From assembly GCA_003165235.1 (NCBI GenBank), contig PLSV01000231.1:28113-75449 (forward strand): a stretch of DNA of 47,337 nt. The letters run 5' to 3'. The stretch comes from Syntrophobacteraceae bacterium (lineage in GTDB: Bacteria > Desulfobacterota > Syntrophobacteria > Syntrophobacterales > Syntrophobacteraceae). The notes beneath the pieces were generated by a model. It saw only the letters and a program-made list of their open reading frames with translations, was not told where the DNA came from and ran no database searches. Shown here piece after piece: positions 2,431 to 43,160 of this stretch (position 1 is the first letter of the stretch; each line of letters begins with the position of its first letter). A program made the position numbers and the translations under genes.

Positions 2431-2449
2431 CAGGAGAGACTTTGTCGCA

Positions 2450-9572: not shown

Positions 9573-10787
9573 ATGATGCCCACGGGGCGATCTGGAGAAT
9601 TTATCTACGAGGGCGCCACGGCGCAGGGTCAAAAGGTAAAGGGGCGCTTTAGGGGCGAGCGTGATAAATTTCTGGCCGAGGTCCGAAAGAAGGATATCAC
9701 ACTGCTTAAAGTCAAGCAGAGAAAGATAAGCTTGAAGGGTGGGAGATTTACCGAAAAAAACCTTACCTCCGGAATAGAAGAACTCAAGCATCTTATCACC
9801 TCAGGAATGAAGCTAGATCAGGCGCTTCAGCTTATCGTCAGGACCAACCAGAAGGCAAGCGCCGTCAACTATTGGCAAAATGTGCTCAAAGCAGTCAAGA
9901 CCGGCAAGCAGTTTTCAGCAGCCATCAAGGAGACCTCCACCAAAATCAAGCTCGATATCCCTGAGTTCTACACCAATATCATCTCGGTGGGCGAAGAGGT
10001 CGGCGACCTCGGTTCGGCTTTGGTCAAGCTGAAAGAATACCTGGATTTCAAGTCGGCTCTGCTTTCGGAAATCAGAACCGCCATGGCCTACCCTGCATTC
10101 CTGGTCCTGGTGTCCTTCGCTGCCCTCTCCCTCATTTTTGGGTTAATCCTGCCCACTTTCTCCAATATTTTCGGGCCACGCGAAATGGAGAGGCTTCCTG
10201 CCCTGTCGGTCATGGTTTTCCATGCGGGCAAATACTTTCGGGAGCACCTGTTCGGGATCTTTTGCGTCTTTTGCGGCGCCGTAACGGCAGTGATATTTTT
10301 CCTGCCTGTAATAAAAAAGAAGATAATGAATCTGTTCCTCCGTCTTCCAGTAACGCGAGATCTTGTCCTCAGCCTGGATATAGCGAATATTTTCACCTCG
10401 TTCGGCATGATGCTCAACGGGGGTGTCGACCTGGCGAGGGCATTGCGGCAGACAGCGCGGGTCGCTCGCCTGCCGGCGCTCAAATCTCTTCTGGAACAGA
10501 GCATAGAAGAAGTGAAGAAGGGGAACAAGCTGAGCGCGGTTTGGTCGGACAGCCGCACGATTCCTCCCGACGTCATCTCCCTCATGATAGTCGGCGAGAA
10601 TTCGGCGCGCCTGGGCGATATCATGCAGGAGCTGGGAACCCGGTTCCTCCTTAGTTTCAAACGGGATGTAAAGACGCTCACCACCTGGCTCGAACCTGCT
10701 ATCATCCTGATTCTGGGGGGGTTTGTCGGGTTCATTGTGGTGGCGATAGCATTGGCCCTGGTCAGCATTAATGAAATCATGTCGTGA
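9573..10787 (+). CDS. gspF: Type II secretion / type IV pilus inner-membrane platform protein (GspF/PilC family)
   Basis: A 404-residue protein, the standard length for GspF/PilC. An N-terminal segment opens with FIYEGATAQGQKVKGRF, the usual start of the family. Two cytoplasmic four-helix GspF domains follow (about 70-190 and 270-390), the first containing FYTNIISVGEEVGDLGSALVKLKEYL and the second VISLMIVGENSARLGDIMQEL. Transmembrane segments lie near 173-195, 225-247 and 375-398. It anchors the ATPase to the membrane and helps extract prepilins. GGAAAAGG precedes two in-frame ATG codons, at 9573 and 9576, and either could be used. The gap from gspE is 56 nt. The 3' end overlaps the next ORF by 17 nt, suggesting translational coupling with the prepilin gene. 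Confidence 0.9.
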   Translation: MMPTGRSGEFIYEGATAQGQKVKGRFRGERDKFLAEVRKKDITLLKVKQRKISLKGGRFTEKNLTSGIEELKHLITSGMKLDQALQLIVRTNQKASAVNYWQNVLKAVKTGKQFSAAIKETSTKIKLDIPEFYTNIISVGEEVGDLGSALVKLKEYLDFKSALLSEIRTAMAYPAFLVLVSFAALSLIFGLILPTFSNIFGPREMERLPALSVMVFHAGKYFREHLFGIFCVFCGAVTAVIFFLPVIKKKIMNLFLRLPVTRDLVLSLDIANIFTSFGMMLNGGVDLARALRQTARVARLPALKSLLEQSIEEVKKGNKLSAVWSDSRTIPPDVISLMIVGENSARLGDIMQELGTRFLLSFKRDVKTLTTWLEPAIILILGGFVGFIVVAIALALVSINEIMS

Positions 10788-11265
10788 GACTACCCAATCT
10801 ATGCGGGATGTTGAGTTGAAGGCCGCAGGGATTCGCTCCGGCCCCGGACGGAAGGCGCCCCGCCAACGCCCCAGGAGGCTGATAGACCCTCTGCGGCGGT
10901 CCCCTTCCGCGCTACGCGGCGGACATCGCACAGGGCTGTTTATAAGTCTATCATACGAGGGTTTCACCCTGCTGGAGTTGCTCGTCGTGCTGACCATCAT
11001 CGGGCTGGCTATTGGTCTCGTGGCTCCGCAGGGATTCAAAGTCTACGATCAGGCCAAGACCTACCTGGCCCGGCTTGAGGATGGCGGGTTTAAAAAGAAG
11101 GCCGTTTTCGAGGCTTTTCTTCTGAATAAAGACTGTGATGTAACATACGACAAGGGCGTGGCATACTTGTCGTGTGGCGATAAAACCGTTCTAACCCAGA
11201 GCGCCGCTCAGAAATTCGACGATATCCATATCAGCAGTAAAGGTTTTACGTCGGACATAAAATGA
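10771..11265 (+). CDS. Prepilin-like (pseudopilin) protein with abnormal long leader
   Basis: A 164-residue ORF. The core is a class III prepilin signal, EGFTLLELLVVLTIIGLAIGLVAP, with Gly64 at -1, Phe65 at +1 and Glu69 at +5, the features recognised by the PilD-type peptidase and needed for assembly. The predicted mature protein is only about 100 residues. What precedes it is odd: normal leaders are 5-25 residues, but no start codon occurs near Gly64 and the only available starts (ATG 10771 or ATG 10801) give a leader of 54-64 basic residues. The DNA coding for this leader (about 10851-10960) is a small repeat element also present at 44211-44340 before dut, and the homology ends 3 nt before the Phe codon. 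The native leader therefore seems to have been displaced. The gene may still work through the coupled upstream start, or it may be a recent pseudogene. Confidence 0.7.
   Translation: MKSCRETTQSMRDVELKAAGIRSGPGRKAPRQRPRRLIDPLRRSPSALRGGHRTGLFISLSYEGFTLLELLVVLTIIGLAIGLVAPQGFKVYDQAKTYLARLEDGGFKKKAVFEAFLLNKDCDVTYDKGVAYLSCGDKTVLTQSAAQKFDDIHISSKGFTSDIK
10851..10960 (+). repeat. Small dispersed element, copy 1 (inside the prepilin leader)
   Basis: About 110 bp that align with 44211-44340. Both copies contain GAAGGCG at the left, a TGATAGAC block, a GCGGT..CC..CGCTACGCG block, and end in the identical 19-mer ATAAGTCTATCATACGAGG (10942-10960 and 44322-44340). TGATAGAC near 10880-10887 is complementary to GTCTATCA at the right end, so the element has inverted-repeat ends like a MITE. 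It has no coding capacity of its own. It interrupts the gene between the GspF stop and the prepilin cleavage site. Confidence 0.7.
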
Positions 11266-11302: not shown

Positions 11303-13336
11303 ATGCATAATCTAATGTTAGGAAACAAGCAAATCCCGCTGATTTGCCTTTTTCTGGCGGTTGCCGCCCTTATGGCGTTCCAGCAGCTCAATCAGTGCGA
11401 TTTCATTAATTATGACGATCCCTTATACGTAACCGACAACATTCATGTCAAGAATGGCGTTACCATCGGGTCAATTCGGTGGGCATTCGCAATCGGCTAT
11501 GGCTCAAACTGGCATCCAGTGACATGGATGTCCCACATGCTCGATATTCAACTCTTTGGGTTGAAACCCCGATGGCATCATCTGACTAATCTCCTGTTCC
11601 ACATTGCAAATACACTGCTGCTCTTTTTCATTTTCTGCCGGATGACCAAATCGCCCTGGAAGAGCGCTTTCGTGGCGGCTCTGTTCGCCCTTCACCCTCT
11701 CCATGTGGAATCAGTCGCCTGGGTGTCCGAGCGAAAGGACGTCCTTTCAACTTTCTTCTGGATGCTTGCCATGGGCGCCTATGTCCACTATGTCGAGCAT
11801 CGGACGGAGGACGGAAGACAGAGGACGGAGGGCGCAGAGAAACGGACGGGTATCCTCCGTTCTCCGTTCTCCGTTTTCCGTTATTTGGCCGTTCTTATAT
11901 TTTTCGCTTTAGGCCTTATGGCGAAACCGATGGTGGTGACCCTTCCTTTTGTCCTGCTCCTTCTGGACTACTGGCCTCTGCAGCGCTTAGAGCCTAAGAA
12001 ATCAGCGGAGCAAACCAGCACAGAGGCAAGCAGGCATGGTGCGGGAAGCGGAGAGCGGGAGCAGTTGTCTGCAAAAAAGAAAAAGGGCGAATCGGCTAAG
12101 ATGCGCATCGCGCAGGGCTTGGTGAAAGAAGCTAAACCAGCGGATCATGAATGCCAATGGGCATTGGTTGGCCCTCTGGTCCGGGAAAAAATCCCACTTC
12201 TTGCGCTTGCAGCCCTCTCATGCATAGTGACGTACATCGCTCAGCAAAAAGGAGGAGCGGTAGCATCCATTAAAGCGTTTTCACCAGGCGCTCGTATTGC
12301 GAATGCCTTCGTTTCCTATATCGCATACATTGGAAAGACCATCTGGCCGGTCAATCTCGCTGTTTATTACCCTCACCCCGGCTGGTGGCCGCTATGGAAG
12401 ATCCTGGGGGCGGTTCTACTCTTCATCGCGGTCACCATTTCAGTTATCCGGACGGCAAAGAGGTTTCCCTACCTGACTATGGGATGGCTCTGGTTTACGG
12501 GCACACTTGTGCCCGTCATAGGGATTGTCCAGGTCGGCGCTCAAGCCATGGCTGACCGCTACACTTATGTCCCCCTGATCGGGTTGTTCGTCATGGCGGC
12601 GTGGGGCGTTCCGGAACTCCTGGAAAAATGGCGGCCCACCCGGTTCCCAACAGCCCGCAAAGAGGCGCTTTTTGCGTCTTCCGGATTGGTTCTTCTGTCT
12701 CTTTTCATTGTTACATGGACTCAGGTCGGGTACTGGCGGGATAATATCACGCTGTATGATCATGCCCTGAAAGTCACCAATCGTAATGATAAGATCCACA
12801 ATAACCGGGGTATCGCCTATGGTGAACTTGGCAACCTGAAGCAGGCGATTTCAGATTATGACAGGGCCATCGCGATCGATCCTGAACTCGCGTTGGCCTA
12901 TATCAACCGTGGCGCCGCCTATCGCCAGCTTGGCGATCAGAGGCGGGCGATTTCAGATTTTAACAGGGCCATCGCGATCGATCCTGAAACCGCGTTGGCC
13001 TATATCAACCGTGGCGCCGCCTATGGCAAACTTGGCGACCGCAGGCAGGCGATTTCAGATTATGACAGGGCCATCGAAATCGATCCTGAATATGCTGACG
13101 CCTATAATAACCGGGGCGTCGTATATGGCGAACTTGGCAACCTGGGGCAGGCGATTTCAGATTTTGACAGGACCATCGAGTTCAACCCTAAACGTGCAGA
13201 GGCATATTATAACCGGGGTATTGCCTTCTCTGGGCTTGGCCGCGACAGCGAGGCGATCGAGGACATGAAAACAGCGGCGAAATTTGACAGCGAAGAAGCC
13301 AAAAAATTCTTGAGAAGCCGGGGAATAAACCGGTGA
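11303..13336 (+). CDS. TMTC-like GT-C membrane protein with C-terminal TPRs, paralogue 1 of 5
   Basis: A 677-residue protein. About 480 residues of multi-pass membrane domain are followed by five 34-residue TPRs (from about 495), the last degenerate. The first extracytoplasmic loop holds NYDDP (Asp38-Asp39), and the next conserved stretch is HPLHVESVAWVSERKDVLS near 131. MADRYTYVPLIGLF at about 415 completes the pattern. These positions correspond to the acidic loop, the HPxHxExVA..xRxDVL block and the (E/D)RxxYxPxxG block of eukaryotic TMTC protein O-mannosyltransferases, a GT-C fold family using lipid-linked sugar. Protein O-glycosylation at the outer face of the inner membrane is the best inference, with TPRs perhaps choosing the acceptor. 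A basic loop (about 230-275) and the hairpin-encoded loop at 167-192 are the variable parts. No strong Shine-Dalgarno precedes ATG 11303; ATG 11315 is an alternative. Confidence 0.8.
   Translation: MHNLMLGNKQIPLICLFLAVAALMAFQQLNQCDFINYDDPLYVTDNIHVKNGVTIGSIRWAFAIGYGSNWHPVTWMSHMLDIQLFGLKPRWHHLTNLLFHIANTLLLFFIFCRMTKSPWKSAFVAALFALHPLHVESVAWVSERKDVLSTFFWMLAMGAYVHYVEHRTEDGRQRTEGAEKRTGILRSPFSVFRYLAVLIFFALGLMAKPMVVTLPFVLLLLDYWPLQRLEPKKSAEQTSTEASRHGAGSGEREQLSAKKKKGESAKMRIAQGLVKEAKPADHECQWALVGPLVREKIPLLALAALSCIVTYIAQQKGGAVASIKAFSPGARIANAFVSYIAYIGKTIWPVNLAVYYPHPGWWPLWKILGAVLLFIAVTISVIRTAKRFPYLTMGWLWFTGTLVPVIGIVQVGAQAMADRYTYVPLIGLFVMAAWGVPELLEKWRPTRFPTARKEALFASSGLVLLSLFIVTWTQVGYWRDNITLYDHALKVTNRNDKIHNNRGIAYGELGNLKQAISDYDRAIAIDPELALAYINRGAAYRQLGDQRRAISDFNRAIAIDPETALAYINRGAAYGKLGDRRQAISDYDRAIEIDPEYADAYNNRGVVYGELGNLGQAISDFDRTIEFNPKRAEAYYNRGIAFSGLGRDSEAIEDMKTAAKFDSEEAKKFLRSRGINR
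11801..11880 (+). repeat. Heptanucleotide/hairpin tract in paralogue 1
   Basis: A purine-rich left arm built of 7-bp units (GGAGGAC, GGAAGAC, AGAGGAC) is followed by a pyrimidine-rich right arm (TCCTCCGTTCTCCGTTCTCC), able to fold back on each other. It encodes the cytoplasmic-type loop HRTEDGRQRTEG and the start of the next membrane segment. It is in frame. Confidence 0.8.
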
Positions 13337-13355
13337 GCTGAATTGGATCGGTTTT

Positions 13356-15353
13356 ATGTTAGCAAACAAGCAAATCCCGCTGATTTGCCTTTTCCTGACG
13401 GTTGCTGCCCTTATAGCGTTCCAGCAGCTCAATCAGTGCGATTTCATTAATTACGACGATCCCTTATACGTAACCGACAACATTCATGTTAAGAGCGGAA
13501 TTACGATGGGGTCGATGCGGTGGGCATTCACGACCGGTCATTCCGCAAACTGGCATCCCGTGACATGGATGTCCCACATGCTCGATGTTCAACTCTTTGG
13601 GCTGAATCCGCGATGGCATCATCTGACCAGTCTCCTGTTCCACATTGCAAATACGCTGTTGCTCTTTTTAATTTTTTGCCGGATGACCAAAGCGCCCTGG
13701 AAGAGCGCTTTCGTAGCGGCTCTGTTCGCTCTTCACCCTCTCCACGTGGAATCCGTCGCCTGGGTGGCTGAGCGGAAGGATGTTCTTTCCACTTTCTTCT
13801 GGATGCTTGCCATGGGCGCCTATATCCGTTATGTCGAGCGTCGGACGGAGGAAGGAGAGAAGCGGACGGGTATCCTCCGTTTTCCGTCTTCCGTTTTCTG
13901 TTATTCGGCTGTTTTCATATTCTTTGCTTTAGGTTTGATGGCGAAACCGATGCTGGTGACCTTTCCCTTTGTCCTGCTGCTTTTGGACTACTGGCCTCTG
14001 CAGCGTTTAGAGCCTAAGAGATCCGCGCAGCAAACCCGCACAGAGGCAAGCAGGCAGAGAGCGGGAAGCAGAGAGCAGGCGCAGTTGTCTGCGAAAAAAA
14101 GAAAGGGCAAATCGGTTAAAATGCGTACCGGGCAGGGCATGGTGAAAGAAGAAAAACCAGCGGCTCAGAATTTCCAATGGGCATCGATTCGTCCTCTGCT
14201 CTGGGAAAAAATGCCCCTTTTCGCCCTGGCGGCGCTTTCCAGCATTGTGACGTTTGTCGTCCAGCAAAAAGGGGGAGCGGTCAAATCTGTCGAGATATTT
14301 TCACCGGGCATTCGTATCGCGAATGCTTTCGTTTCATATATCGTCTACATCGAAAAGACCATCTGGCCGATTAATCTCGCTGTTTTTTATCCTCATCCCG
14401 GATTGCTGCCGCTCTGGCAGGTCCTGGGGGCGGTTCTGCTACTCACCGCAGTCACCGTTTCGGTTATCCGGACCGCAAAGGGGTTTCCCTGCCTGACTGT
14501 GGGATGGCTCTGGTTTACAGGCACGCTTGTGCCCGTCATAGGGATTGTGCAGGTCGGCGCTCAAGCCCTGGCCGACCGCTACACTTATATCCCCCTGATC
14601 GGGTTGTTCGTCATGGCGGCGTGGGGCATTCCGGATCTTTTAAAAAAATGGCGGCCCAACCGGTTCCCAACACCCCGCAAAGAGGCGCTTTTTGCAGCGT
14701 CGGGATTGGTTATGCTGTCTCTTTTGATTGTGACGCGGACACAGGTCGGGTACTGGCGCAATAACATCGCATTGTATGATCACAGCCTTAAAGCGAACCC
14801 CAGTGACGTTATCCACGGCAACCGGGGAGTCGCCTATTTCAAGCGTGGAGAATATGCGAAGGCGGTTTCGGATTATGACAGGGCCATCGAAATCAATCCT
14901 AAATATGATGAGGCCTATAATAACCGGGGCGCTGTCTCCGGCATACTTCGCGATAACAGGCAGGCCATTTTGGATTTTGACAGGGCCATCGTGATAAATG
15001 GTAAATATGTTGATGCCTATTATAACAGGGGCATCGCCTATGGCGAACTTGGCGACCCGAGGCATGCGATAGAGGATTTTGACAGGGCCATCGAGATCGA
15101 TCCTAAATATGCTGATGCCTATAATGGTCGGGGCGTAGCCTACCATAAACTTGGCGATCAGAAGCAGGCGATTTCAGATTTTGACAGGGCCATCGAGATC
15201 AATCCTGAATATGCTGATGCCTATAATAACCGGGGCGTCGTCTATGGCATGCTTCGCAACCAGAGGCAGGAGATCGAGGACCTGCAAAAGGCGGCAAGAC
15301 TTGGCAGCGCAGATGCAAAGAACTCTTTAAGAAGCAGAGGGATAAGCTGGTAG
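13356..15353 (+). CDS. TMTC-like GT-C membrane protein with C-terminal TPRs, paralogue 2 of 5
   Basis: A 665-residue protein, highly similar in protein and DNA to paralogue 1, 19 nt downstream of it. NYDDPLYV, HPLHVESVAWVAERKDVLS and ADRYTYIPLIGLF are all intact, and the only change at the last block is ALADRY for AMADRY. Five TPRs begin at about residue 481; the second and last are irregular (VSGILRDNRQ, YGMLRNQRQE). The hairpin-tract loop is the shortest of those that keep both arms (EERTEEGEKRTGILRFPSSVF-type). The last residues LRSRGISW close the protein as in the other copies (RGINW or RGIDW). The start ATG 13356 begins MLANKQIPLICLF, matching the shared N-terminus. No clear ribosome site is seen. 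The function is inferred as for paralogue 1, with a diverged TPR groove suggesting a different partner. Confidence 0.8.
   Translation: MLANKQIPLICLFLTVAALIAFQQLNQCDFINYDDPLYVTDNIHVKSGITMGSMRWAFTTGHSANWHPVTWMSHMLDVQLFGLNPRWHHLTSLLFHIANTLLLFLIFCRMTKAPWKSAFVAALFALHPLHVESVAWVAERKDVLSTFFWMLAMGAYIRYVERRTEEGEKRTGILRFPSSVFCYSAVFIFFALGLMAKPMLVTFPFVLLLLDYWPLQRLEPKRSAQQTRTEASRQRAGSREQAQLSAKKRKGKSVKMRTGQGMVKEEKPAAQNFQWASIRPLLWEKMPLFALAALSSIVTFVVQQKGGAVKSVEIFSPGIRIANAFVSYIVYIEKTIWPINLAVFYPHPGLLPLWQVLGAVLLLTAVTVSVIRTAKGFPCLTVGWLWFTGTLVPVIGIVQVGAQALADRYTYIPLIGLFVMAAWGIPDLLKKWRPNRFPTPRKEALFAASGLVMLSLLIVTRTQVGYWRNNIALYDHSLKANPSDVIHGNRGVAYFKRGEYAKAVSDYDRAIEINPKYDEAYNNRGAVSGILRDNRQAILDFDRAIVINGKYVDAYYNRGIAYGELGDPRHAIEDFDRAIEIDPKYADAYNGRGVAYHKLGDQKQAISDFDRAIEINPEYADAYNNRGVVYGMLRNQRQEIEDLQKAARLGSADAKNSLRSRGISW
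13842..13900 (+). repeat. Heptanucleotide/hairpin tract in paralogue 2
   Basis: A short version of the same tract at the same codon position: left arm CGGACGGAGGAAGGAGAGAA, right arm TCCTCCGTTTTCCGTCTTCC. The unit number is lower than in paralogues 1, 3 and 5, yet the frame is kept. Confidence 0.75.
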
Positions 15354-15375
15354 CAGCCAGCGGTCTTGGGTCACG

Positions 15376-17592
15376 ATGTCTTCCATGTTAAAAAATAAAC
15401 AGGTTCTGATGATCTGTCTTTTTGTCGCTGCTGCTGCTCTCATAGCATTCTGGCGCGTCAATCAGTGCGATTTCATCAATTATGACGATCCCTCATATGT
15501 AATCGAGAACGTTCATGTTCAGAACGGCATTACGATTGAGTCAATCCGGTGGGCATTCACGACCGGTTATGCATCAAACTGGCATCCTGTGACATGGATG
15601 TCCCACATGCTCGATGTTCAACTCTTCGGGTTGAAACCGCAATGGCATCACCTGACTAATCTCCTGTTCCACATCGTAAATACGCTGTTGCTCTTCTTCG
15701 TTTTTCACAGGATGACCAAAGCGCCCTGGAAGAGCGCTTTCGTGGTGGCTCTGTTCGCCCTTCACCCTCTCCACGTGGAATCCGTCGCCTGGGTTTCCGA
15801 GCGCAAGGATGTTCTTTCCACTTTCTTCTGGATGCTCGCCATGGGCGCCTATGTCCATTATGTCGAGCATCGGACGGAGGACGGAAGACAGAAGACGGAG
15901 GACGGAAGACAGAAGACGGATATTCTTGGTTTTCCGTCTTCCGTTTTCCGATATTCGGCCGTTCTCATATTTTTTGGTCTGGGCCTTATGGCGAAACCGA
16001 TGCTGGTGACCTTTCCTTTTGTCCTGCTGCTCTTGGACTACTGGCCCCTGCAGCGCTTCGAGCCAAAAAAATCCGCTCGGGAGATCAGTACAGAGGCAAG
16101 CAGGCAGCGGGCGCAGTCGCCTGGGAACAAAAAAAAGGGCGAATCGGCTAAGATGCGCACCGGGCAGGGCATACTGAAAGAAGAAAAACCAGCGGCTCAG
16201 AATTTCCAATGGGCATCGATTCGTCCTCTGATCTGGGAAAAAATGCCCCTTTTCGCCATGGCGGCGCTTTCAAGCATCGTAACATTTGTCGTCCAGCAAA
16301 AAGGAGGAGCGGTCAAATCTATCGAGGCGTTTCCACCGGGCGTTCGTATTGCGAATGCCTGCGTTTCATATATCGTCTATATTGGAAAAACCATCTGGCC
16401 GATTAATCTTGCCGTTTTTTATCCTCATCCCGGATCGTTGCCGCTCTGGCAGCCTCTGGGGGCGGTTCTGCTCCTTATCGCAGTCACCGTTTCGGTTATC
16501 CGGACGGCAAAGAAGCTTCCCTGCCTGATTGTGGGATGGCTTTGGTTTGCCGGCACGCTTGTGCCTGTCATAGGGATTGTGCAGGTCGGCAGGCAAGCCA
16601 TGGCTGACCGCTACACTTATATCCCCCTGATCGGGTTGTTCGTCATGGCGGCGTGGGGCATTCCGGAGCTTTTGAAAAAATGGCGGCCCAACCGGTTCCC
16701 AACACTCCGCAAAGAGGCGCTTTTTGCGGCGTCGGGATTGGTTCTTCTGTCTCTTCTCATTGTTACATGGACACAGGCAGGGTACTGGCGCAATAACATC
16801 GCCTTGTATGATCACAGCCTTAAAGCTGCAGGCCTTAGTGACATTATCCTCTGCAACCGGGGTAACGCCTATGGCGAAATTGGAAACCACGAGCAGGCAA
16901 TTTCAGATTTTGACAGGGCCATCCAAATCAATCCTGACTATGCGAACGCATATCATGACCGGGGTGTCGTCTACGGCAAACTTGGTGACCGCGGGCAGGC
17001 GATTTCAGATTTTGACAGGGCCGTCGAAATCAATCCAAAATATGCTGCGGCCTATAATAACCGGGGCGCCGTCTATGACATACTTGGCAAGAAGAGGCAG
17101 GCTATTCAGGATTTTAACAAGGCCATCGAAATGAATCCTGAATATGCTGAGGCCTATTACAACCGGGGCGCGGCCTATGGCGAACTTGGCGAGCAGAGGC
17201 AGGCGATTTCAGACTATGACAGGGCCATCGAAATCAATCCAAAATTTGCTGAGGTCTATATCAACCGTGGCGCGGCCTATCGCGAACTTGGCGACCGGCG
17301 GCAGGCGATTTCAGATTTTGACAGGGCCATCGAGATCAATCCTGACTATGCAAAGGCATATTTTAACCGGGGGGTTGTCCATTACGAACTTGGCGACCAG
17401 AGGCAGGCGATTTCAGATTATGACAGGGTCATCGAGATCAATCCTGACTATGCAAAGGCATATTTTAACCGGGGAATCGCCTACGGCAAACTTGGCTACG
17501 GCGGCAAGGCGATCGAAGACCTGAAAAGAGCGGCGAAATTTGACAGCGAAGAAGCCAAGAAACTCTTGAGAATCCGGGGAATAGACTGGTGA
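15376..17592 (+). CDS. TMTC-like GT-C membrane protein with C-terminal TPRs, paralogue 3 of 5
   Basis: A 738-residue protein with seven TPRs (from about residue 487), otherwise built like its neighbours. The catalytic-type motifs NYDDPSYV, HPLHVESVAWVSERKDVLS and MADRYTYIPLIGLF are conserved. The basic cytoplasmic loop is shorter than in paralogue 1 (lacking the SGERAQLSAKK part). The hairpin loop is one of the longest, reading TEDGRQKTEDGRQKT, a direct protein duplication produced by six perfect 7-bp units. Two successive TPRs near the end (YAKAYFNRG) are almost identical, showing recent duplication. It begins 22 nt after paralogue 2 with ATG 15376 (MSSMLKNKQ) or ATG 15385. It ends in a GTGA overlap with the GTG start of paralogue 4, so these two are translationally coupled. 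Confidence 0.8.
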   Translation: MSSMLKNKQVLMICLFVAAAALIAFWRVNQCDFINYDDPSYVIENVHVQNGITIESIRWAFTTGYASNWHPVTWMSHMLDVQLFGLKPQWHHLTNLLFHIVNTLLLFFVFHRMTKAPWKSAFVVALFALHPLHVESVAWVSERKDVLSTFFWMLAMGAYVHYVEHRTEDGRQKTEDGRQKTDILGFPSSVFRYSAVLIFFGLGLMAKPMLVTFPFVLLLLDYWPLQRFEPKKSAREISTEASRQRAQSPGNKKKGESAKMRTGQGILKEEKPAAQNFQWASIRPLIWEKMPLFAMAALSSIVTFVVQQKGGAVKSIEAFPPGVRIANACVSYIVYIGKTIWPINLAVFYPHPGSLPLWQPLGAVLLLIAVTVSVIRTAKKLPCLIVGWLWFAGTLVPVIGIVQVGRQAMADRYTYIPLIGLFVMAAWGIPELLKKWRPNRFPTLRKEALFAASGLVLLSLLIVTWTQAGYWRNNIALYDHSLKAAGLSDIILCNRGNAYGEIGNHEQAISDFDRAIQINPDYANAYHDRGVVYGKLGDRGQAISDFDRAVEINPKYAAAYNNRGAVYDILGKKRQAIQDFNKAIEMNPEYAEAYYNRGAAYGELGEQRQAISDYDRAIEINPKFAEVYINRGAAYRELGDRRQAISDFDRAIEINPDYAKAYFNRGVVHYELGDQRQAISDYDRVIEINPDYAKAYFNRGIAYGKLGYGGKAIEDLKRAAKFDSEEAKKLLRIRGIDW
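15871..15950 (+). repeat. Heptanucleotide/hairpin tract in paralogue 3
   Basis: Clean 7-bp periodicity: GGAGGAC GGAAGAC AGAAGAC is present twice in a row (42 bp), then a spacer and the right arm TTTCCGTCTTCCGTTTTCCG. Because 7 is not a multiple of 3, gain or loss of one unit would shift the frame; three units (21 bp) would keep it. Confidence 0.85.
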
Positions 17593-19679
17593 ATGGTTCT
17601 ATGTTGGGCGAGAAGCAAATCCCGCTGATTTGCCTTTTTCTGGCGGTTGCCGCCCTTATGGCGTTCTGGCAGGTCAATGAGTGTGATTTCATTAATTACG
17701 ACGATCCCTCATACGTAACCGAGAACTTTCATGTTAAGAGCGGCATTACGCTTAGGTCAATTCGGTGGGCATTCACGACCGGTTATTCCGCAAACTGGCA
17801 TCCAGTGACATGGATGTCCCACATGCTCGATGTTCAACTCTTTGGGTTGAAGCCGAGATGGCATCATCTGACTAATCTGTTGTTCCACATTGCAAATACG
17901 CTGTTGCTCTTTTTCCTCTTTCACCGGATGACCAAAGCGCCCTGGAAGAGCGCTTTCGTAGCGGCTTTGTTCGCCATTCACCCTCTCCACGTGGAATCCG
18001 TCGCCTGGGTGGCTGAGCGCAAGGATGTTCTTTCAACTTTCTTCTGGATGCTCGCCATGGGCGCCTATATCAATTATGTCGAGCATCGGACGGAGGACGG
18101 AAGAGAGGGAACGGGTATCCTCCGTTATTCGGCCATTCTCATATTTTTTGTTTTAGGTCTTATGTCAAAACCGATGCTGGTGACCTTTCCTTTTGTCCTT
18201 CTGCTCTTGGACTATTGGCCTCTGCATCGATTCGAGCCAAAAAAATCCGCTCGGGAGGTCCGTACAAAGGCAAGCAGGCAGGGAACGGGAAGCGGAGAGC
18301 GGGCGCAGTTGTCTGCGAAAAAAAGAAAGGGCGAATCGGCTAAGATGCGCACCGCGAAGGGCATGGTGAAAGAAGAAAAACCAGCAGTTCATAATTTCCA
18401 GTGGGAGTTGATTCGTCCTCTGCTCTGGGAAAAAATGCCCCTTTTTGTCCTGGCGGCGCTTTCAAGCATTGTGACATTTGTCGTCCAGCAAAAGGGAGGA
18501 GCGGTCAGAACTATCGAGGCAATTTCACCGGGCGCTCGTATCGCGAACGCCTTCGTTTCCTATATCGCCTACATTGGAAAGACCGTCTGGCCGGTTAATC
18601 TTGCCGTTTATTATCCACACCCCGGGTGGTGGCCGCTATGGCAGGTCCTGGGAGCGGTTTTACTCCTTATGGCAGTCACCATTTCGGTTATCCGGACGGC
18701 AAACAGGCTTCCCTTCCTGGCTATGGGATGGCTCTGGTTTGCCGGCACGCTTGTGCCCGTCATTGGGATTGTGCAGGTCGGCGGTCAAGCCATGGCTGAC
18801 CGCTACACCTATGTCCCCCTGATCGGGTTGTTCGTCATGGCGGCATGGGGCATTCCGGAACTCTTGAAAAAATTGCGGCCCACCCGGTTCCCAACACCCC
18901 GCAAAGAGGCGCTTTTTATTTTGTCGGGATTGGTTCTTCTGTCTCTTTTCATTGTTACACGGACACAGGCAGGGTACTGGCGCAATAACATCGCGCTGTA
19001 TGATCATAGCCTTGAAGCAAGCCCCAGTGAAGTTATCCACAGCATCCGGGGACTTGCCTACGGCAAACTTGGCGAGCAGAGACGGGCTATTTCAGATTAT
19101 AACAGGGCCGTCGAAATCAATCCTAATTATTCTGAGGCCTATAATAACCGGGGTATCGCCTATGGCAAGCTTGGCGACCAGAGGCAGGCGATCCCTGATT
19201 TTGACAGGGCTATCGCAATCGATCCTAAATCTGCTGAGGTCTACAATAACCGGGGCGTCACCTATGACAAGCTTGGCGACCACAGGCGGGCGATTGCAGA
19301 TTATGACAGGGCCGTCGAAATCAATCCTGAATATCCTGAGGCATATAATAACCGGGGTGGCGCCTATGGCGCGCTTGGCGACCAGAGGCGGGCGATTGCG
19401 GATTATGACAGGGCCATCGAAATCAATCCTGAATATCCTGAGGCATATAATAACCGGGGTGGCGCCTATGGCGCGCTTGGCGACCAGAGGCAGGCGATTG
19501 CGGATTATGACAGGGCCATCGGGCTTAGCCCTAAACAGGCGGAGATATATTATAACCGGGGTATCGCCTACGGCAAACTTGGCCACGACAGCAAAGAGAT
19601 CGAGGACATGAAAACAGCGGCAAGATTTGACAGTGAAGAAGCTAAGAAATTCTTGAGAAGCCGGGGAATAAACTGGTGA
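17589..19679 (+). CDS. TMTC-like GT-C membrane protein with C-terminal TPRs, paralogue 4 of 5
   Basis: A 696-residue protein starting at GTG 17589 in a 4-nt overlap with paralogue 3; ATG 17601 (MLGEKQIPL) is an alternative that fits the shared N-terminus well. NYDDPSYV, HPLHVESVAWVAERKDVLS and MADRYTYVPLIGLF are intact. Six TPRs begin at about residue 478. The fourth and fifth are nearly identical over a full 34 residues (YPEAYNNRGGAYGALGDQR in both) with near-identical DNA, a fresh 102-bp duplication. The hairpin-tract loop is reduced to HRTEDGREGTGILRYSA because the right arm is missing. It ends in a GTGA overlap with paralogue 5. The proposed role is as for paralogue 1. Confidence 0.8.
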   Translation: MNGSMLGEKQIPLICLFLAVAALMAFWQVNECDFINYDDPSYVTENFHVKSGITLRSIRWAFTTGYSANWHPVTWMSHMLDVQLFGLKPRWHHLTNLLFHIANTLLLFFLFHRMTKAPWKSAFVAALFAIHPLHVESVAWVAERKDVLSTFFWMLAMGAYINYVEHRTEDGREGTGILRYSAILIFFVLGLMSKPMLVTFPFVLLLLDYWPLHRFEPKKSAREVRTKASRQGTGSGERAQLSAKKRKGESAKMRTAKGMVKEEKPAVHNFQWELIRPLLWEKMPLFVLAALSSIVTFVVQQKGGAVRTIEAISPGARIANAFVSYIAYIGKTVWPVNLAVYYPHPGWWPLWQVLGAVLLLMAVTISVIRTANRLPFLAMGWLWFAGTLVPVIGIVQVGGQAMADRYTYVPLIGLFVMAAWGIPELLKKLRPTRFPTPRKEALFILSGLVLLSLFIVTRTQAGYWRNNIALYDHSLEASPSEVIHSIRGLAYGKLGEQRRAISDYNRAVEINPNYSEAYNNRGIAYGKLGDQRQAIPDFDRAIAIDPKSAEVYNNRGVTYDKLGDHRRAIADYDRAVEINPEYPEAYNNRGGAYGALGDQRRAIADYDRAIEINPEYPEAYNNRGGAYGALGDQRQAIADYDRAIGLSPKQAEIYYNRGIAYGKLGHDSKEIEDMKTAARFDSEEAKKFLRSRGINW
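18087..18126 (+). repeat. Reduced heptanucleotide tract in paralogue 4
   Basis: Only the left arm (CGGACGGAGGACGGAAGAGA) and a 7-nt remnant TCCTCCG of the right arm remain, joined to the conserved TTATTCGGC. It is the shortest of the five, which may show the loop before expansion or after deletion. Confidence 0.7.
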
Positions 19680-22015
19680 TTAGTTATGTGTTAGGAAACA
19701 AGCAAATCACGCTGATTTGCCTTTTTCTGGCGATTGCCGCCCTTATGGCGTTCTGGCAGGTCAATCAGTGCGATTTCATTAATTATGACGATCCTTCATA
19801 CGTAACTGAAAACATCCATATCCGCAATGGTGTTACGACAGAGGCAATTCGGTGGGCATTCACGACCTGTTATGCCGCAAACTGGCATCCCGTGACATGG
19901 ATGTCCCACATGCTCGATGTTCAACTCTTTGGGTTGAAACCGCGATGGCATCATCTGACTAATCTCCTGTTCCACATTGCAAATACACTGTTGCTCTTTC
20001 TCATTTTCTGCCGGATGACCAAAGCGCCGTTGAAGAGCGCTTTCGTGGCGGCTTTGTTCGCCCTTCACCCTCTCCACGTGGAATCCGTCGCCTGGGTTTC
20101 CGAACGAAAGGACGTCCTCTCAACTTTCTTCTGGATGCTCGCCATGGGCGCCTATATCAATTATGTCGAGCATCGGACGGAGGACGGAAGACGGAGGAAG
20201 GAGGACAGAAGACAGAGGACGGAGGACGGAGAGAAGTGGACGGGCATCCTCCGTTATTCGGCTGTTTTCATATTCTTTGCTTTAGGTTTGATGGCCAAAC
20301 CCATGCTGGTGACCTTTCCTTTTGTCCTGCTCCTTCTGGACTACTGGCCTCTGCAGCGCTTAGAGCCTAAGAAATCCGCCGGGCAACCCCGTACAGAGGC
20401 TGGCAGGCAGGGAGCGGGAAGCGGAGGGCAGGCACAGTTGTCTGCGAAAAAAAGAAAAGGCGGATCGGGCAGGATGCCCACTGGACAAGGCATGGTGAAA
20501 GAAGAAAAACCAACGGATCGTATATGCCAATGGGCATTGATTCGTCCTCTGATCCTGGAAAAAATCCCACTTTTTGCGCTTACAGCGCTCTCATGTATCG
20601 TGACATATGTCGCTCAGAAAAAGGGAGGTTCCGTCTCATCCTTTGAGGAAATGGGACCGGGCGTTCGTATCGCCAATGCCTTCGTTTCCTATATCGTCTA
20701 CATTGGAAAGACCCTCTGGGCGGCTAATCTTGCAGTTTATTATCCACATCCGGAGTTGTGGTCGCTCTGGCAGGCCATGGGGGCGGCTCTACTGCTTATC
20801 GCAGTCACCATTGCGGTTATCCGGTCAGCAAAGAGGTTTCCCTACCTGGCTGTTGGATGGCTGTGGTTTACAGGCGCACTTGTGCCCGTCATAGGGATTG
20901 TGCAGGTCGGCGGTCAAGCCATGGCCGACCGCTACACTTATATCCCCCTGATCGGGTTGTTCGTCATGGCGGCATGGGGCATTCCGGAACTCCTGCAAAA
21001 ATGGCGGCCCACCCGGTTCCCAACACTCCGCAAAGAGGCGCTTTTTGCGTTGTCGGGATTGGTTCTTCTGTCTCTTTTCATTGTTACGCGAACACAGGTA
21101 GGGTACTGGCGTAATAACATTGCGTTGTACGATCACACCCTTAAAGTTGCAAGCCCCAGTGAGGTTATCCTCTGCAACCGGGGGAATGCCTATCGCAAAC
21201 TTGGCGACCTGAAGCAGGCGATTTCAGATTATGACAGGGCCGTCGAAATCAATCCTACATGCGCTGAGGCCTATAGCAACCGGGGAAATGCCCATGGCAA
21301 ACTTGGCGACCAAAGCCAGGCGATTTCGGATTATGACAGGGCCATCGAAATCAATCCTGAATATGCCGATGCCTATGGCAACAGGGGGACCGCCTACTCC
21401 AAACTCGGCAAATACAGACAGGCGGTTTTGGACTTTGACAGGGCCATCGAGATCAATCCTGAACTCGCGTGGGTTTATAATGGCCGGGGCATGGCCTATG
21501 GCAAATTTGGCGAGCACAACCGGTCGATTTCAGATTTTGACAGGGCCATCGAACTAAATCCTGAATATGCTGAAGCCTATCATAACCGTGGCGCCGTCTA
21601 TAGCCTGCTTCACAATAACAGCCAGGCGATTTCAGATTTTGACAGGGCCGTCCAAATCGATCCGGATGATGCGTACGCTTATTATAACCGGGGTGTCGTC
21701 TATGGCGAACTTCACAACCAGAGGCAGGCTATTTCGGATTATGACAGGGCCATTGAAATCGATCCTGAAAATGCTGACGCCTATAATAACCGGGGAGTCG
21801 CCCATTATGGACTTGGCGATCACAGGCAGGCGATCTCGGATTATGACAGGGCCATCGAGATCAAGCCTGACTATGCAAAGGCACATTATAACCGGGGGGT
21901 CGTCTACGCTGAACTGGGCGACGGCGGTAAGGCGATCGAGGACCTGAAAGCAGCGGCGAAATTTGGCAGCGAAGCAGCTATGAAATACTTGAGAAGCAAG
22001 GGAATAAACTGGTGA
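19676..22015 (+). CDS. TMTC-like GT-C membrane protein with C-terminal TPRs, paralogue 5 of 5
   Basis: A 779-residue protein, the longest of the series, with eight TPRs from about residue 492. It starts at GTG 19676, overlapping paralogue 4 by 4 nt. NYDDPSYV, HPLHVESVAWVSERKDVLS and MADRYTYIPLIGLF are conserved. Small differences from the other copies, such as TTCYAANWHP for TTGYSANWHP and KKGGSVSSFEEMGPG for QKGGAVKSIEAFSPG, mark it as somewhat diverged in the extracytoplasmic loops. Its TPRs are the most heterogeneous in the array (for example YSLLHNNSQ, YGELHNQRQ). The hairpin-tract loop is the longest, about eight 7-bp units, but like paralogue 4 it lacks the long right arm. Twenty-one nucleotides separate it from the next membrane protein gene. 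Confidence 0.8.
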   Translation: MISYVLGNKQITLICLFLAIAALMAFWQVNQCDFINYDDPSYVTENIHIRNGVTTEAIRWAFTTCYAANWHPVTWMSHMLDVQLFGLKPRWHHLTNLLFHIANTLLLFLIFCRMTKAPLKSAFVAALFALHPLHVESVAWVSERKDVLSTFFWMLAMGAYINYVEHRTEDGRRRKEDRRQRTEDGEKWTGILRYSAVFIFFALGLMAKPMLVTFPFVLLLLDYWPLQRLEPKKSAGQPRTEAGRQGAGSGGQAQLSAKKRKGGSGRMPTGQGMVKEEKPTDRICQWALIRPLILEKIPLFALTALSCIVTYVAQKKGGSVSSFEEMGPGVRIANAFVSYIVYIGKTLWAANLAVYYPHPELWSLWQAMGAALLLIAVTIAVIRSAKRFPYLAVGWLWFTGALVPVIGIVQVGGQAMADRYTYIPLIGLFVMAAWGIPELLQKWRPTRFPTLRKEALFALSGLVLLSLFIVTRTQVGYWRNNIALYDHTLKVASPSEVILCNRGNAYRKLGDLKQAISDYDRAVEINPTCAEAYSNRGNAHGKLGDQSQAISDYDRAIEINPEYADAYGNRGTAYSKLGKYRQAVLDFDRAIEINPELAWVYNGRGMAYGKFGEHNRSISDFDRAIELNPEYAEAYHNRGAVYSLLHNNSQAISDFDRAVQIDPDDAYAYYNRGVVYGELHNQRQAISDYDRAIEIDPENADAYNNRGVAHYGLGDHRQAISDYDRAIEIKPDYAKAHYNRGVVYAELGDGGKAIEDLKAAAKFGSEAAMKYLRSKGINW
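20174..20256 (+). repeat. Heptanucleotide tract in paralogue 5
   Basis: About eight 7-bp units (GGAGGAC, GGAAGAC, GGAGGAA, AGAAGAC, AGAGGAC and variants) encoding a Glu/Asp/Arg-rich loop, then the short remnant TCCTCCG. It has the longest left arm of the five. Confidence 0.8.
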
Positions 22016-22036: not shown

Positions 22037-24610
22037 ATGAAGCGCATGCGTGAGGCCGCGGTTTCTCTCGCTCTAGTCGCCGCGATTGTCATTATATGGT
22101 GCATAATTTATGGCTGTACTTCGCTCGCCGCCTGGAACACCCCTGTGAATTACGGCGGCGATGTGACTTACGGCGGCGACACGGCCTGGGTGCTGGCCAA
22201 CGCACAGGCATTTCTTAACGGCGAGATCGCGCCGGTTTTTCAAAAATTCGTGAAATCCCTCGGCGCTCCCTTTGCTGCCAATTGGAACGACTATCCGATT
22301 ACCGAAGAGCTTATATTTGCAGCAATGGGCTGGCTGGGACGAGGCATAGGGCTTTTTGCGAGTGCGAATGTCATTCTTTTGCTGGCTCATGTTCTTGCCG
22401 GCTTATCGTTTTACTGGGTTGCCAGAACCCTCAAGTACAAAACAGCTTTCAGCCTCGCCGGGGCCGTCTTGTTCGCTTTCTCTCCCATCATTTTTTATTG
22501 GAGCCTGCGCCACATCACTCTCGCCTACTACTGGCACGTCCCCCTGTTTCTCCTGGTGACCTGGTGGACTTTATCGGGCCGGATAACTTTATGGGGCCGA
22601 AAATGGTGGATTGCGGCGGCCGTCTCCTTTATTACAGGTACATTTAACCCGTATTACACCTGTATGTATTTGCAGTTCCTGGGGTTTGGAGTTCTTCTTC
22701 ATTCCGTGCGAAAGCAGTGGCCGCAAGCAGCCATGGCCTTTGTCATGGGGTGCCTGGCGATGGCCGGATTTCTGCTGATGAACGTTGATACGATCAGCTA
22801 CGCTGCGCAACATGGGAGTAACCTCGAGGCCGGCGTCCGTCACTTAAGCGAACTGATGCCATATGCATTAAGAGTTCCCGACCTCCTCCTGCCGCCTCCC
22901 TACCATCGCTGGCATTGGTGGGCCTCTTTCGGGCAGACGAGATATTACCTTGTAACCGGTCTCAAGGGAAATTTGTGGAGTCCGTATCTTGGTTTTGCGG
23001 GTATTGCAGGCTTAGCCTGGCTTGTGGGCCTGAGCATTTTCAGACTTTTTCAGGGAAAACCCCGTTGCATTCCCGTTCAAGCATGGCAGACTTTATGGGT
23101 ATTGGCCTTTTCGCTTGTTGGCGGCGTCAATTTGATTCTGGGGATTTTAGGGTGTACTTATTTCAGGGCGCCAAACAGGTTAAGCATTATTATCCTGTGC
23201 TTTTCCCTCCTTTTCCTGGTCCGCCAGCTCTCGCGCCATTGTTCCCGCCGGCTTACGCTGCCCGTGGCTTTTATTCTGTTGGCGGTCGGTCTGGCCGATC
23301 AGTTACAGCCCGTTGCGACCAGTGCGAGCATTGAACAAATGGCGCAACAGATTCGATCGGATCGTGAGTTTACAACCGGCATGGAATCGGGCCTGCCCCC
23401 TGGAACCATGGTTTTTCAACTGCCGGTGATGGGCTACCCGGAGTATGGATCCATAAACAAAATGTACGACTACGAACATCTCATTCCATATCTCTACTCT
23501 AAGCGCATCCGCTATTCCTATGGCTCGGATAAGGGAAGGGCTTCCGAATCCTGGCAACGGGAAGTCGAGAAGATGCCGCCCGCAGAGATGGCCGCCAAAC
23601 TTGAGGAGTACGGCTTCGGCGCCATTTATCTCAATACAAAGGCTTTTAAAGACGGGGGATCGAAGCTGATCGACGGTTTAAGGGACGCTGGCAAGCCGGT
23701 TTTGCTCGTGAGCAGCGGGAAGGACCTGGCAGCGATTCGACTGAAACCTGCCGCTGTACCGTCTATGCCGGATATTCCCCCATTCTGCGGCCCAGGTTGG
23801 TCGGTAGGCGGCGATCCAGGGGACGATCGATGGGCGGTTGCCCGCGAGGCGACTATCGAATTCTGGAATACCCGAAAGGAGAGCACAAAAACATCCATAC
23901 AGTTTAGCTTGTCAACCTTAAAACCAAGACACGTCAGGATTACCTTTAATTCCGAGTTGTTCGATGATTTCGATCTTCGGCCGGAGGCTTCCAGGACGAT
24001 TGGGCCTAGAGACCTCACTTTGGCCCCCGGGAAAAACGTCATGCAATTCGAGACGGATGCGCCTCCTGAGGCTCAGGGAAATGCCGATCCTCGAAAGCTG
24101 ACTTTTTTGATACGCGACTTAAAAGAGGTTCGATTCACGACGGACTCCGGTTTGGCGAAACAGACCCCGTCTTTGCCTTTAGACCAACGCATAGAATTTG
24201 CCCAGGGGCGCAGCGGGACCAATTATCTCCTGGATGGATGGTCGCAACCCGAACCCTGGGGTGTCTGGTCCGACGGTCCGGAAGCATCGATCAAACTGCC
24301 GATAGACGGGGATGCAAAAGAGATAAAGGCGATCTCTTTAGAGGCGGACGCATTAGTTGGTCCTCAACACCAGGAGCAAACAGTCGATCTCTGGTGGGAC
24401 GGTGAAAAAATTCAGAGTTTTTGCCTTAAGGCCTTTTCGGATAATCTCATGGAGATACGGATTCCGGAAGCCGCACAGAAGACGGGCGTGATGCGGGGTT
24501 ACCATTTATTGCGGTTTTCGATTCTAAATCCGGCGAAACCTGCAGACATCGGAATGGGGCCGGATTCCCGGAATTTAGGCATAGGACTTAAGACGCTCGT
24601 GCTTCATTGA
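22037..24610 (+). CDS. Large multi-pass membrane protein, probable GT-C type glycosyltransferase
   Basis: An 857-residue protein with a good AGGAG site (22022-22026) before ATG 22037. About eleven hydrophobic segments occupy residues 8-425. The first large outer loop contains YGGDTAWVLANAQAFLNG and NWNDYPITEE, which resembles the acidic first loop of GT-C enzymes, but no family signature is certain. From about residue 440 there is a large soluble C-terminal part. One section resembles nucleotide-free periplasmic loops of YfhO-type proteins (PEYGSINKMYDYEHLIPYL, KMPPAEMAAKLEEYGFGAIYLN). Two further stretches, near 600-690 and 725-850, look like beta-sandwich carbohydrate-binding-type folds. 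It lies directly behind the TMTC-like array and likely belongs to the same transcript. I do not recognise a named gene; glycan transfer at the periplasmic face is an inference from topology and neighbours. Confidence 0.65.
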   Translation: MKRMREAAVSLALVAAIVIIWCIIYGCTSLAAWNTPVNYGGDVTYGGDTAWVLANAQAFLNGEIAPVFQKFVKSLGAPFAANWNDYPITEELIFAAMGWLGRGIGLFASANVILLLAHVLAGLSFYWVARTLKYKTAFSLAGAVLFAFSPIIFYWSLRHITLAYYWHVPLFLLVTWWTLSGRITLWGRKWWIAAAVSFITGTFNPYYTCMYLQFLGFGVLLHSVRKQWPQAAMAFVMGCLAMAGFLLMNVDTISYAAQHGSNLEAGVRHLSELMPYALRVPDLLLPPPYHRWHWWASFGQTRYYLVTGLKGNLWSPYLGFAGIAGLAWLVGLSIFRLFQGKPRCIPVQAWQTLWVLAFSLVGGVNLILGILGCTYFRAPNRLSIIILCFSLLFLVRQLSRHCSRRLTLPVAFILLAVGLADQLQPVATSASIEQMAQQIRSDREFTTGMESGLPPGTMVFQLPVMGYPEYGSINKMYDYEHLIPYLYSKRIRYSYGSDKGRASESWQREVEKMPPAEMAAKLEEYGFGAIYLNTKAFKDGGSKLIDGLRDAGKPVLLVSSGKDLAAIRLKPAAVPSMPDIPPFCGPGWSVGGDPGDDRWAVAREATIEFWNTRKESTKTSIQFSLSTLKPRHVRITFNSELFDDFDLRPEASRTIGPRDLTLAPGKNVMQFETDAPPEAQGNADPRKLTFLIRDLKEVRFTTDSGLAKQTPSLPLDQRIEFAQGRSGTNYLLDGWSQPEPWGVWSDGPEASIKLPIDGDAKEIKAISLEADALVGPQHQEQTVDLWWDGEKIQSFCLKAFSDNLMEIRIPEAAQKTGVMRGYHLLRFSILNPAKPADIGMGPDSRNLGIGLKTLVLH

Positions 24611-42902: not shown

Positions 42903-43004
42903 AACTCTGAGACCTCTCCTTAAAAAGAAAATGCTGGCAAACTCACCTCGATTCGAGATAAAAAGCAACTCTACACGCTGCGTGGCGTGTTGTCTTCCGC
43001 CTAA

Positions 43005-43033
43005 ATAATCCGGTATTTCCGCTCCGAATTCAA
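43005..43033 (-). promoter_or_regulatory. Candidate sigma-70-type promoter for the BMP importer operon
   Basis: On the minus strand TTGAAT (43033-43028) and GATTAT (43010-43005) are separated by exactly 17 nt, each 4 of 6 to consensus. It points toward the substrate-binding gene, about 100 nt upstream of its TTG start. It was found by eye, so chance is possible. Confidence 0.3.
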
Positions 43034-43160
43034 CGGCTTTTGCATCTGCGCCTCGCGCTGGTGGAGCTTTTGTCGGGCTTGTCAATGTGCAGATGACAGG
43101 TTGAGTCTTCATCGCCAGGTTTCGGGAACTGCTAAAAAGGTTTTGGGAGAGGAGAAAGCA

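Follow-up and report, generated by a model that had tools for sequence, protein, structure and literature searches.

The window analysed here, a stretch of 47,337 nt from a Syntrophobacteraceae bacterium (GCA_003165235.1, contig PLSV01000231.1, positions 28,113-75,449, forward strand), carries an array of five genes, each encoding a membrane head of the type C glycosyltransferase (GT-C) kind that is followed by an arm of tetratricopeptide repeats (TPRs). The genes and their arms lie as follows.

11303..13336, + strand: gene 1, 677 aa, TMTC-like GT-C head with 5 TPR units
12800..13333, + strand: TPR arm of gene 1
13356..15353, + strand: gene 2, 665 aa, array-type head with an arm end of the C322/C214 type, 5 TPR units
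14817..15350, + strand: TPR arm of gene 2
15376..17592, + strand: gene 3, 738 aa, head with 7 TPR units
16852..17589, + strand: TPR arm of gene 3
17589..19679, + strand: gene 4, 696 aa, GTG start, head with 6 TPR units
19041..19676, + strand: TPR arm of gene 4
19676..22015, + strand: gene 5, 779 aa, GTG start, head with 8 TPR units
21173..22012, + strand: TPR arm of gene 5

The genes are co-directional, with spacings of 19, 22, -4 and -4 nt, and the window does not contain any N base. An earlier reading of this DNA from its letters alone (the sequence-only reading) had described five head-to-tail genes of 665-779 residues with very similar membrane domains and 5, 5, 7, 6 and 8 TPRs, and all of this was recovered from the open reading frames (ORFs). 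The membrane heads share 78.0-82.5% pairwise amino acid identity and the TPR parts 62-67%, and the repeat counts were reproduced by a position-specific scan trained on units of the window and of contig C322 of the same genome, the last unit of each arm being a degenerate C-terminal cap. The Pfam model TPR_1 alone (E≤0.01) yields 5, 3, 7, 5 and 8 stretches, so that for genes 2 and 4 the counts depend on the position-specific scan. In the DNA the repeats form 102-bp tandem arrays, and the strong Pfam matches of the whole array proteins are exclusively to TPR families. The motifs NYDDP, HPLHVESVAW..ERKDVL and ADRYTY, likewise picked out beforehand, are present in all five genes. Chance does not account for five intact, conserved copies.

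In single-sequence scans the five window heads matched no Pfam family of the GT-C clan at E≤10 and gave only chance matches to domains of unknown function (DUFs), so that an alignment-wide Pfam scan and a profile comparison were needed. One scan of genome contigs supplied 80 named loci; a length and motif filter was passed by 69 ORFs in 52 of them, the remaining 28 giving no passing ORF. After two ORFs with unknown residues and an odd, truncated one were dropped, the other 66 were aligned with the window heads to give a set of 71. PF13231 (PMT_2) was matched by 43 of the 71 heads at E≤0.01, as well as by c322a, a ~75%-identical paralogue from the same genome (E 3.8e-7), which places the heads in the GT-C superfamily by sequence. 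The sequence-only reading had suggested a relation to the eukaryotic TMTC O-mannosyltransferases and proposed a search against TMTC/DUF1736-like and GT-C families; the GT-C part of that search was thus borne out, whereas the TMTC family model PF08409 (TMTC_DUF1736) itself was left unmatched. A PF08409 search of the whole genome found nothing, and its 14 controls were silent as well. Within the phylum PF08409 scored above its cut-off in 3 of 118 genomes, and the three bacterial PF08409 proteins (L128, L129 and L130) have TPR-like tails, as judged by eye. The 71-head profile aligned with these three proteins over 377 columns, nearly full length, at E 2e-38 (2.4e-29 against one of them alone) and 24-27% identity, and it independently recovered the PF08409 place G065:C16 at E 6.8e-53. 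Searches of the PDB sequences, with a single sequence and with the profile, gave no usable match.

The suggested TMTC relation is thus, at the level of sequence, real, and runs through bacterial TMTC homologues, the comparison having had bacterial sequences on both sides; by way of the three PF08409-positive proteins, homology to TMTC (CAZy family GT105) extends over the whole membrane head. The heads are nevertheless no strict TMTCs but form a bacterial branch that is sister to the TMTC family, because PF08409 is unmatched and both acidic metal ligands proposed for human TMTCs are missing. With TMTC1-4 they share the 11-helix GT-C head, the DD of the first outer loop, the M4 lysine, the M7 arginine and tyrosine, and a TPR domain that follows the last helix on the non-cytoplasmic side, but they differ in the two ligands, in their tandem arrangement and in having arms common to other heads. 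With L128-L130 they share head layout by profile alignment, TPR-like tails and phylum, whereas all three of those proteins retain the KE and ADY motifs. Database entries for such proteins presumably carry the name 'protein O-mannosyl-transferase'. In the open-access literature of PubMed Central (PMC), no description of the bacterial TMTC-like family, of its tandem arrays or of arm exchange was found among the matches listed.

The residues of the proposed active site, which include the following element, were compared across the 71 heads.

11414..11419, + strand: D38-D39 of gene 1, acidic pair in the first periplasmic loop, present in 71/71 heads

This pair (the DD motif, M1, in the first outer loop) is invariant in the heads of relatives and window alike. 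K208, the M4 lysine, is present in 70/71 heads, and R419 and Y422 of M7 in 71/71, although the row filter demanded ERKDVL-like and DRY[TSF][YF] strings, which makes the M3 and M7 counts partly circular. When the M4 and M5 positions were set by the head-versus-PF08409 profile alignment, the residue after the M4 lysine, a glutamate in TMTC, proved to be proline in 68/71 heads and alanine, threonine or serine in the other three, and the position of the M5 aspartate is acidic in 0/71. According to PMC7801869, this glutamate and this aspartate are the metal ligands in a docked TMTC model. The branch thus departs from the TMTCs at the proposed metal site while it retains the DD motif. One consequence might be that the heads no longer transfer sugar and have become membrane anchors or chaperones for the arm. 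We regard such a loss of activity as improbable, since DD, the M4 lysine and the M7 arginine and tyrosine (the latter partly through row selection) have been kept, the heads are under low dN/dS, and the metal ligands derive from the docking model in PMC7801869 and not from a TMTC structure. The same source describes, from homology models, the active site of human TMTCs, one of which bears a disease mutation, and a sister branch that has the DD motif without the proposed metal ligands offers a natural test of the residues needed in TMTCs.

Structure prediction with AlphaFold2 yielded a head model with a pLDDT of 87.2 and a pTM of 0.88, in which 11 spanning helices (10-31, 89-115, 118-139, 141-177, 188-207, 209-223, 285-317, 364-383, 389-406, 424-443 and 449-477) are accompanied by an extra non-spanning helix at 328-347, an assignment read from the model. 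This layout agrees with that given for TMTCs in PMC7801869, namely 11 spans plus a non-spanning helix, and the count of 11 is also found in PMC6801728. With nearly the same spans, and with the TPR tail left out, lysine plus arginine numbered 27 in 115 residues of predicted inner loops versus 8 in 122 residues of outer loops. In the full-length model of gene 1 (pLDDT 81.9) the last span continues into a solenoid of five TPR units, and the predicted topology and loop charges together place the TPR domain in the periplasm, after the 11 helices. Furthermore, the first 15 Foldseek matches of the head model in the PDB were all GT-C entries (AglB, PglB, OST-containing entries, Pmt4, ArnT and DPY19; probability 0.96-1.00, TM-score by query 0.36-0.47, E 3.2e-3 to 0.11), those in rows 1, 6, 9, 10, 12, 13 and 14 being complexes whose matched chain was taken to be STT3, and no TMTC entry was among the 50 PDB fold matches listed. 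The GT-C fold suggested in the sequence-only reading is thus predicted by the model, at weak E-values.

We then examined the arms. Counted from the C-terminus, the arms of genes 1, 3 and 4 are in register, with 0.79-0.80 nucleotide identity as against ~0.70 in other registers, so that their TPR numbers differ by gain or loss of whole units; tandem repeats gain and lose whole units without selection for new acceptors. The number of TPRs as a sign of acceptor choice was rejected on these grounds. Gene 2 is composite in sequence: its head shares 0.86-0.88 nucleotide identity with genes 1, 3, 4 and 5 versus 0.83-0.85 with the C322 heads, whereas its last two TPR units plus cap share 0.86-0.89 with c322b, c322c and c214y, genes of other contigs of this genome, 0.78 with c322d and 0.71-0.74 with its own array; for the cap alone the values are 88-94% to the c322b/c322c/c214y type versus 71-76% to its own array. 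The arms of c214y and c322c themselves show 0.889 over seven units in register, versus 0.728 in other registers, but the case for exchange was not rested on this pair, because it may be a scaffolding error.

Furthermore, the same kind of TPR array ends proteins of this genome that are not TMTC-like, namely c122, c176a, c176b and c252, none of which has a 2-N join in the gene, and c214 ends in the same array type up to its N join. Of these, c122 is open at the contig end and has a cap 93% identical in DNA to that of c163b, and c176b and c252 have a DUF2142 head (64% to each other). In c176a, c176b, c252 and c214x, even the DNA of the last helix and a ~40-residue linker before the array is common (70-79% between head types over 120-159 bp, E 6e-19 to 4e-33, the E-values referring to a set of seven sequences), whereas the heads minus their last 75 residues, of the DUF2142, c176a and c214 types, have no detectable similarity (best blastp E 2.2). 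Since this stretch is non-repeat, TPR consensus cannot explain its being shared. A search for the last helix and linker at E≤0.01 found four places in this genome, with no match in any of 39 relatives, and the c214 head type was found in none of 58 relatives at E≤1e-3. The cassette therefore comes with a helix of its own, which would place the arm on the outer side. In addition, contig C406 encodes an armless paralogue of the c214 head (87% identical; 89.9% nucleotide identity over 1397 bp), in which the identity ends within about two codons of the cassette start and the protein terminates after RRRRSPGSIR. Arm gain on c214 is the simpler reading than arm loss in C406, and the coexistence in one genome of armed and armless versions of this head makes the role of the arm directly testable. 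A constant catalytic part with varied TPRs, as the array had been characterised, is a correct description but a partial one, since arms move between heads and are shared with other head types of the same genome. TPR-armed DUF2142 proteins and an unassigned 969-aa protein were also noted, at L026 5377-8286 and 3247-5250 and at L027 3071-5041, with two in tandem on C176.

In a draft genome of 424 contigs with 8.88% contamination, such arm sharing might arise in assembly, and 2-N joins do occur in the c214 arm, c322b, c163b and c19, while c122 starts at a contig end. We consider an artefact highly unlikely, because no N lies in the window, in c176a, c176b, c252 or c122, or in the C406 paralogue; because the head, linker and first five TPR units of c214 precede its N join; and because gene 2, in the gap-free window, shows arm exchange with the join-free c322c.

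The sequence-only reading had gone further and proposed a set of enzymes with different acceptor choice, in which each paralogue would choose its own acceptor by its own TPR surface. The concave positions of the TPR units, assigned by the usual TPR numbering, are indeed the most variable class in all three unit groups (1.9-2.1 bits versus 0.4-0.6 for core positions), and with genes 1, 3, 4 and 5 in register and dS pooled, the ratio of nonsynonymous to synonymous rates (dN/dS) is 1.18 at concave codons, 0.26 at core and 0.70 at other codons. However, the concave codons' own dS of 0.73 lowers their ratio to ~0.67, no test shows a value above 1, and the concave ratio is 0.54 in c322b/c322c/c214y and 1.08 in c176a/c252. 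These ratios, like the dN/dS of 0.42-0.72 over the arms of the window genes, are compatible with diversification but do not prove it. TPR families vary at concave positions in general. Furthermore, arms move between heads, so that arm and enzyme are no fixed pair, and the presence of the arms on other head types speaks for exchangeable arms without showing one acceptor per enzyme. A fixed assignment of acceptors to paralogues is, in our view, rather unlikely. An OGT-like asparagine ladder (asparagine at TPR position 6 in 22/26, 27/34 and 18/25 of the units scoring at least 70 in the three groups) was set aside, because asparagine at this position also belongs to the general TPR_1 consensus.

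The head family is common: of 247 genomes sampled from the phylum, 105 have matches to its profile at E≤1e-20, and 12, the present genome among them, have at least seven candidates. Two genes stand head to tail in 11 of 52 named loci, and no run is longer than two; these loci measure at most ~19 kb and often end at contig ends. The genome studied here (7.07 Mb) has a second array on C322, with four genes, one interrupted by a 2-N join, adjoined by two PMT_2 genes and a GT2 gene, and further head fragments: C163 has about two, and C19 has one that is divergent. Among ten genomes of the same genus, which measure 3.7-5.5 Mb, one lacks any match at E≤1e-3, the matches in eight are all weak (E 5e-10 to 8e-4), and one, G001, has a contig-edge piece with 46% identity over 197 residues (E 7.7e-43), including a 37-residue stretch at 78%. 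A Bmp gene of the window (41823-43112) has a 73% match in 2 of 7 same-genus genomes, which makes the contig compatible with the genus. The eight complete heads of this genome form a single clade (100/100), within which the heads of C210 are split from those of C322 with support of 96/92, which marks an expansion specific to this lineage, the genes of an array having been duplicated, or homogenised, among themselves. Unequal crossing over might have multiplied a single enzyme and reshuffled its repeats with no new function arising. The supported split, the head-to-tail pairs elsewhere and the finding that repeat units are no more alike within genes than between them (0.764 versus 0.755-0.760) would suit such a neutral or dosage expansion. 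Against it, all ten window head pairs are under purifying selection (dN/dS 0.26-0.36) at dS 0.27-0.46, so that the copies must have been retained long, and the cassette sits on three head types; we thus rate a purely neutral origin as rather improbable.

The surroundings of the array bear on donor and acceptor, with the following genes nearest to it.

10771..11265, + strand: prepilin-like protein directly upstream of the array, acceptor candidate
22037..24610, + strand: 857-aa membrane protein without a Pfam match at E≤0.01 and with an 83% paralogue on C214
24807..25172, + strand: GtrA-family protein (PF04138, E 2.7e-16), candidate polyprenyl-phosphate-sugar flippase
26872..28848, + strand: sugar-nucleotide epimerase fused to a GtrB/ArnC-like polyprenyl-phosphate sugar synthase, candidate for making the donor

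Downstream the order is 857-aa protein, GtrA, split transketolase, epimerase-GtrB fusion, methyltransferase and MBOAT protein; upstream lie genes for a secretion/pilus ATPase (GspE), a GspF-like and the prepilin-like protein and, farther away, a Wzm/Wzt exporter (1645-3778). The GtrB/ArnC-like domain matches sll0501 at E 7.6e-61 and ArnC at ~1e-34. A polyprenyl-phosphate sugar synthase, a flippase and a GT-C enzyme, the triad of Gtr-type systems, thus stand in one locus, which provides for a donor pathway like that of three-component systems (PMC11754754, PMC11127046). The GT136 enzyme of such systems also has a C-terminal substrate-binding module (PMC11127046), but where that enzyme has a carbohydrate-binding module the array has a TPR arm, and the adjacency is not conserved in relatives.

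In NCBIfam the GT2 domain matches PgfS of Streptococcus mutans best (E 3e-64), at a score of 217, far below the PgfS cut-off of 500. In the Pgf operon, which serves protein glycosylation, PgfE is an epimerase and PgfM1 and PgfM2 are membrane proteins. The operon includes pgfM1, pgfE and pgfM2 (PMC5856776), and the abstract of that paper does not mention TPR arms.

This setting could also mean that the heads act on a surface polysaccharide or a lipid glycan, to which they add side groups after export while the arm merely docks to an assembly or export complex. A glycan locus surrounds the array (Wzm/Wzt exporter, methyltransferases, epimerase, GtrA, GtrB-like and MBOAT proteins), the three-component systems described in PMC11127046 and PMC11754754 decorate glycans, and one arm type over several head types suits a common docking partner. 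We hold this acceptor to be unlikely all the same, since TMTCs act on proteins, as do OST, PMT and DPY19 among the structure matches, and the neighbours of the array are not conserved. In addition, TPR units usually bind peptides.

The homology, the modelled fold class, the predicted topology, the selection on the heads and the arm exchange at the DNA level lead us to prefer, at a probability of roughly 60%, that the array encodes periplasm-facing GT-C enzymes of a bacterial sister branch of the TMTCs, whose arms for protein acceptors are an exchangeable module. As to catalysis, donor, acceptor and arm function, a sugar would be put on polyprenyl phosphate inside the cell, where the epimerase-GtrB fusion could supply the donor, and GtrA could flip the polyprenyl-phosphate sugar across the inner membrane. 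On the outer face of that membrane the 11-helix head would take the sugar from its carrier, the DD pair in its first outer loop being the putative catalytic base or acceptor binder, and the arm, following helix 11 in the periplasm, would keep the acceptor, most probably a protein, close to the active site. The arm appears to have been swapped among the TMTC-like copies of this genome, and a form with its own membrane helix to have been joined to several further kinds of head. In FlmG, the flagellin glycosyltransferase of Caulobacter, acceptor specificity comes from a TPR domain (PMC7591256), although FlmG is cytoplasmic and has a GT-B domain, a soluble donor and an N-terminal TPR. One arm type on several heads fits a common target or docking partner, and the variation within the array fits several targets.

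Several observations weigh against these protein-directed enzymes with exchangeable arms. PF08409 matches 0/71 heads at E≤0.01; both metal ligands of the TMTC model are absent from 71/71, so that the chemistry may differ; and the best Foldseek E-value is 3.2e-3, none being ≤1e-3. Remote kinship of the three cassette head types would lie beyond the reach of blastp, and c214y lies past the 2-N scaffold join in C214, so that its pairing with c322c may be a scaffolding error. The c122, c176a and c214 heads have no GT-C Pfam match, so that among the glycosyltransferases sharing the arm they would count as putative. Finally, GtrA/GtrB and pilus genes are not conserved neighbours of the heads, and the link is local. 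In single-sequence searches (E≤1e-5) of the 80 named loci, which are cut at contig ends, GtrA, GspE, GspF, Wzm, MBOAT and the 857-aa protein were found in 0/80, GtrB in 2/80, the epimerase in 3/80, Wzt in 5/80, a transketolase half in 1/80 and the prepilin-like motif in 10/80.

A wider and more tentative proposal is that this genome has a pool of interchangeable periplasmic TPR arms, one kind of which has its own membrane helix, and that these recombine between loci and make ordinary membrane glycosyltransferases acceptor-targeted; the result would be a combinatorial system in a bacterium, the heads setting the sugar and the arms the target. If it is true that arms exchange between heads, arm swapping could serve to direct bacterial glycosylation, in laboratory strains, to proteins of choice. 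New here are the arms; the kinship of the head family to TMTC, which had earlier only been suggested, is now computed.

Some minor features of the locus were also recorded. The paralogue of the 857-aa protein (G000:C214:15267-17405; 83% over residues 1-713) has one in-frame TAG, and its contig C214 also holds the TPR-armed c214 head. The split transketolase (25191-26881), which separates GtrA from the epimerase-GtrB fusion, has its N and C halves in two overlapping ORFs. The prepilin-like ORF has ~60 extra residues ahead of its methylation motif; the real start probably lies farther downstream, and a repeat element may account for the leader. At 4887-7658 lies a gene for a 923-aa GT9 (heptosyltransferase-like) protein, whose C-terminal half contains ~18 copies of a 63-bp repeat (6366-7490; 21 aa, weak STPR-like match). 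Finally, genes 1, 3 and 5 contain a GACGGAA/GACGGAG heptamer minisatellite, translating as RTEDGRQ, at 11801-11849, 15873-15920 and 20175-20243; it falls in the loop that joins helices 4 and 5 and is predicted to be cytoplasmic. Its motif has 62 matches in this genome at up to two mismatches versus 0 for a reversed control.

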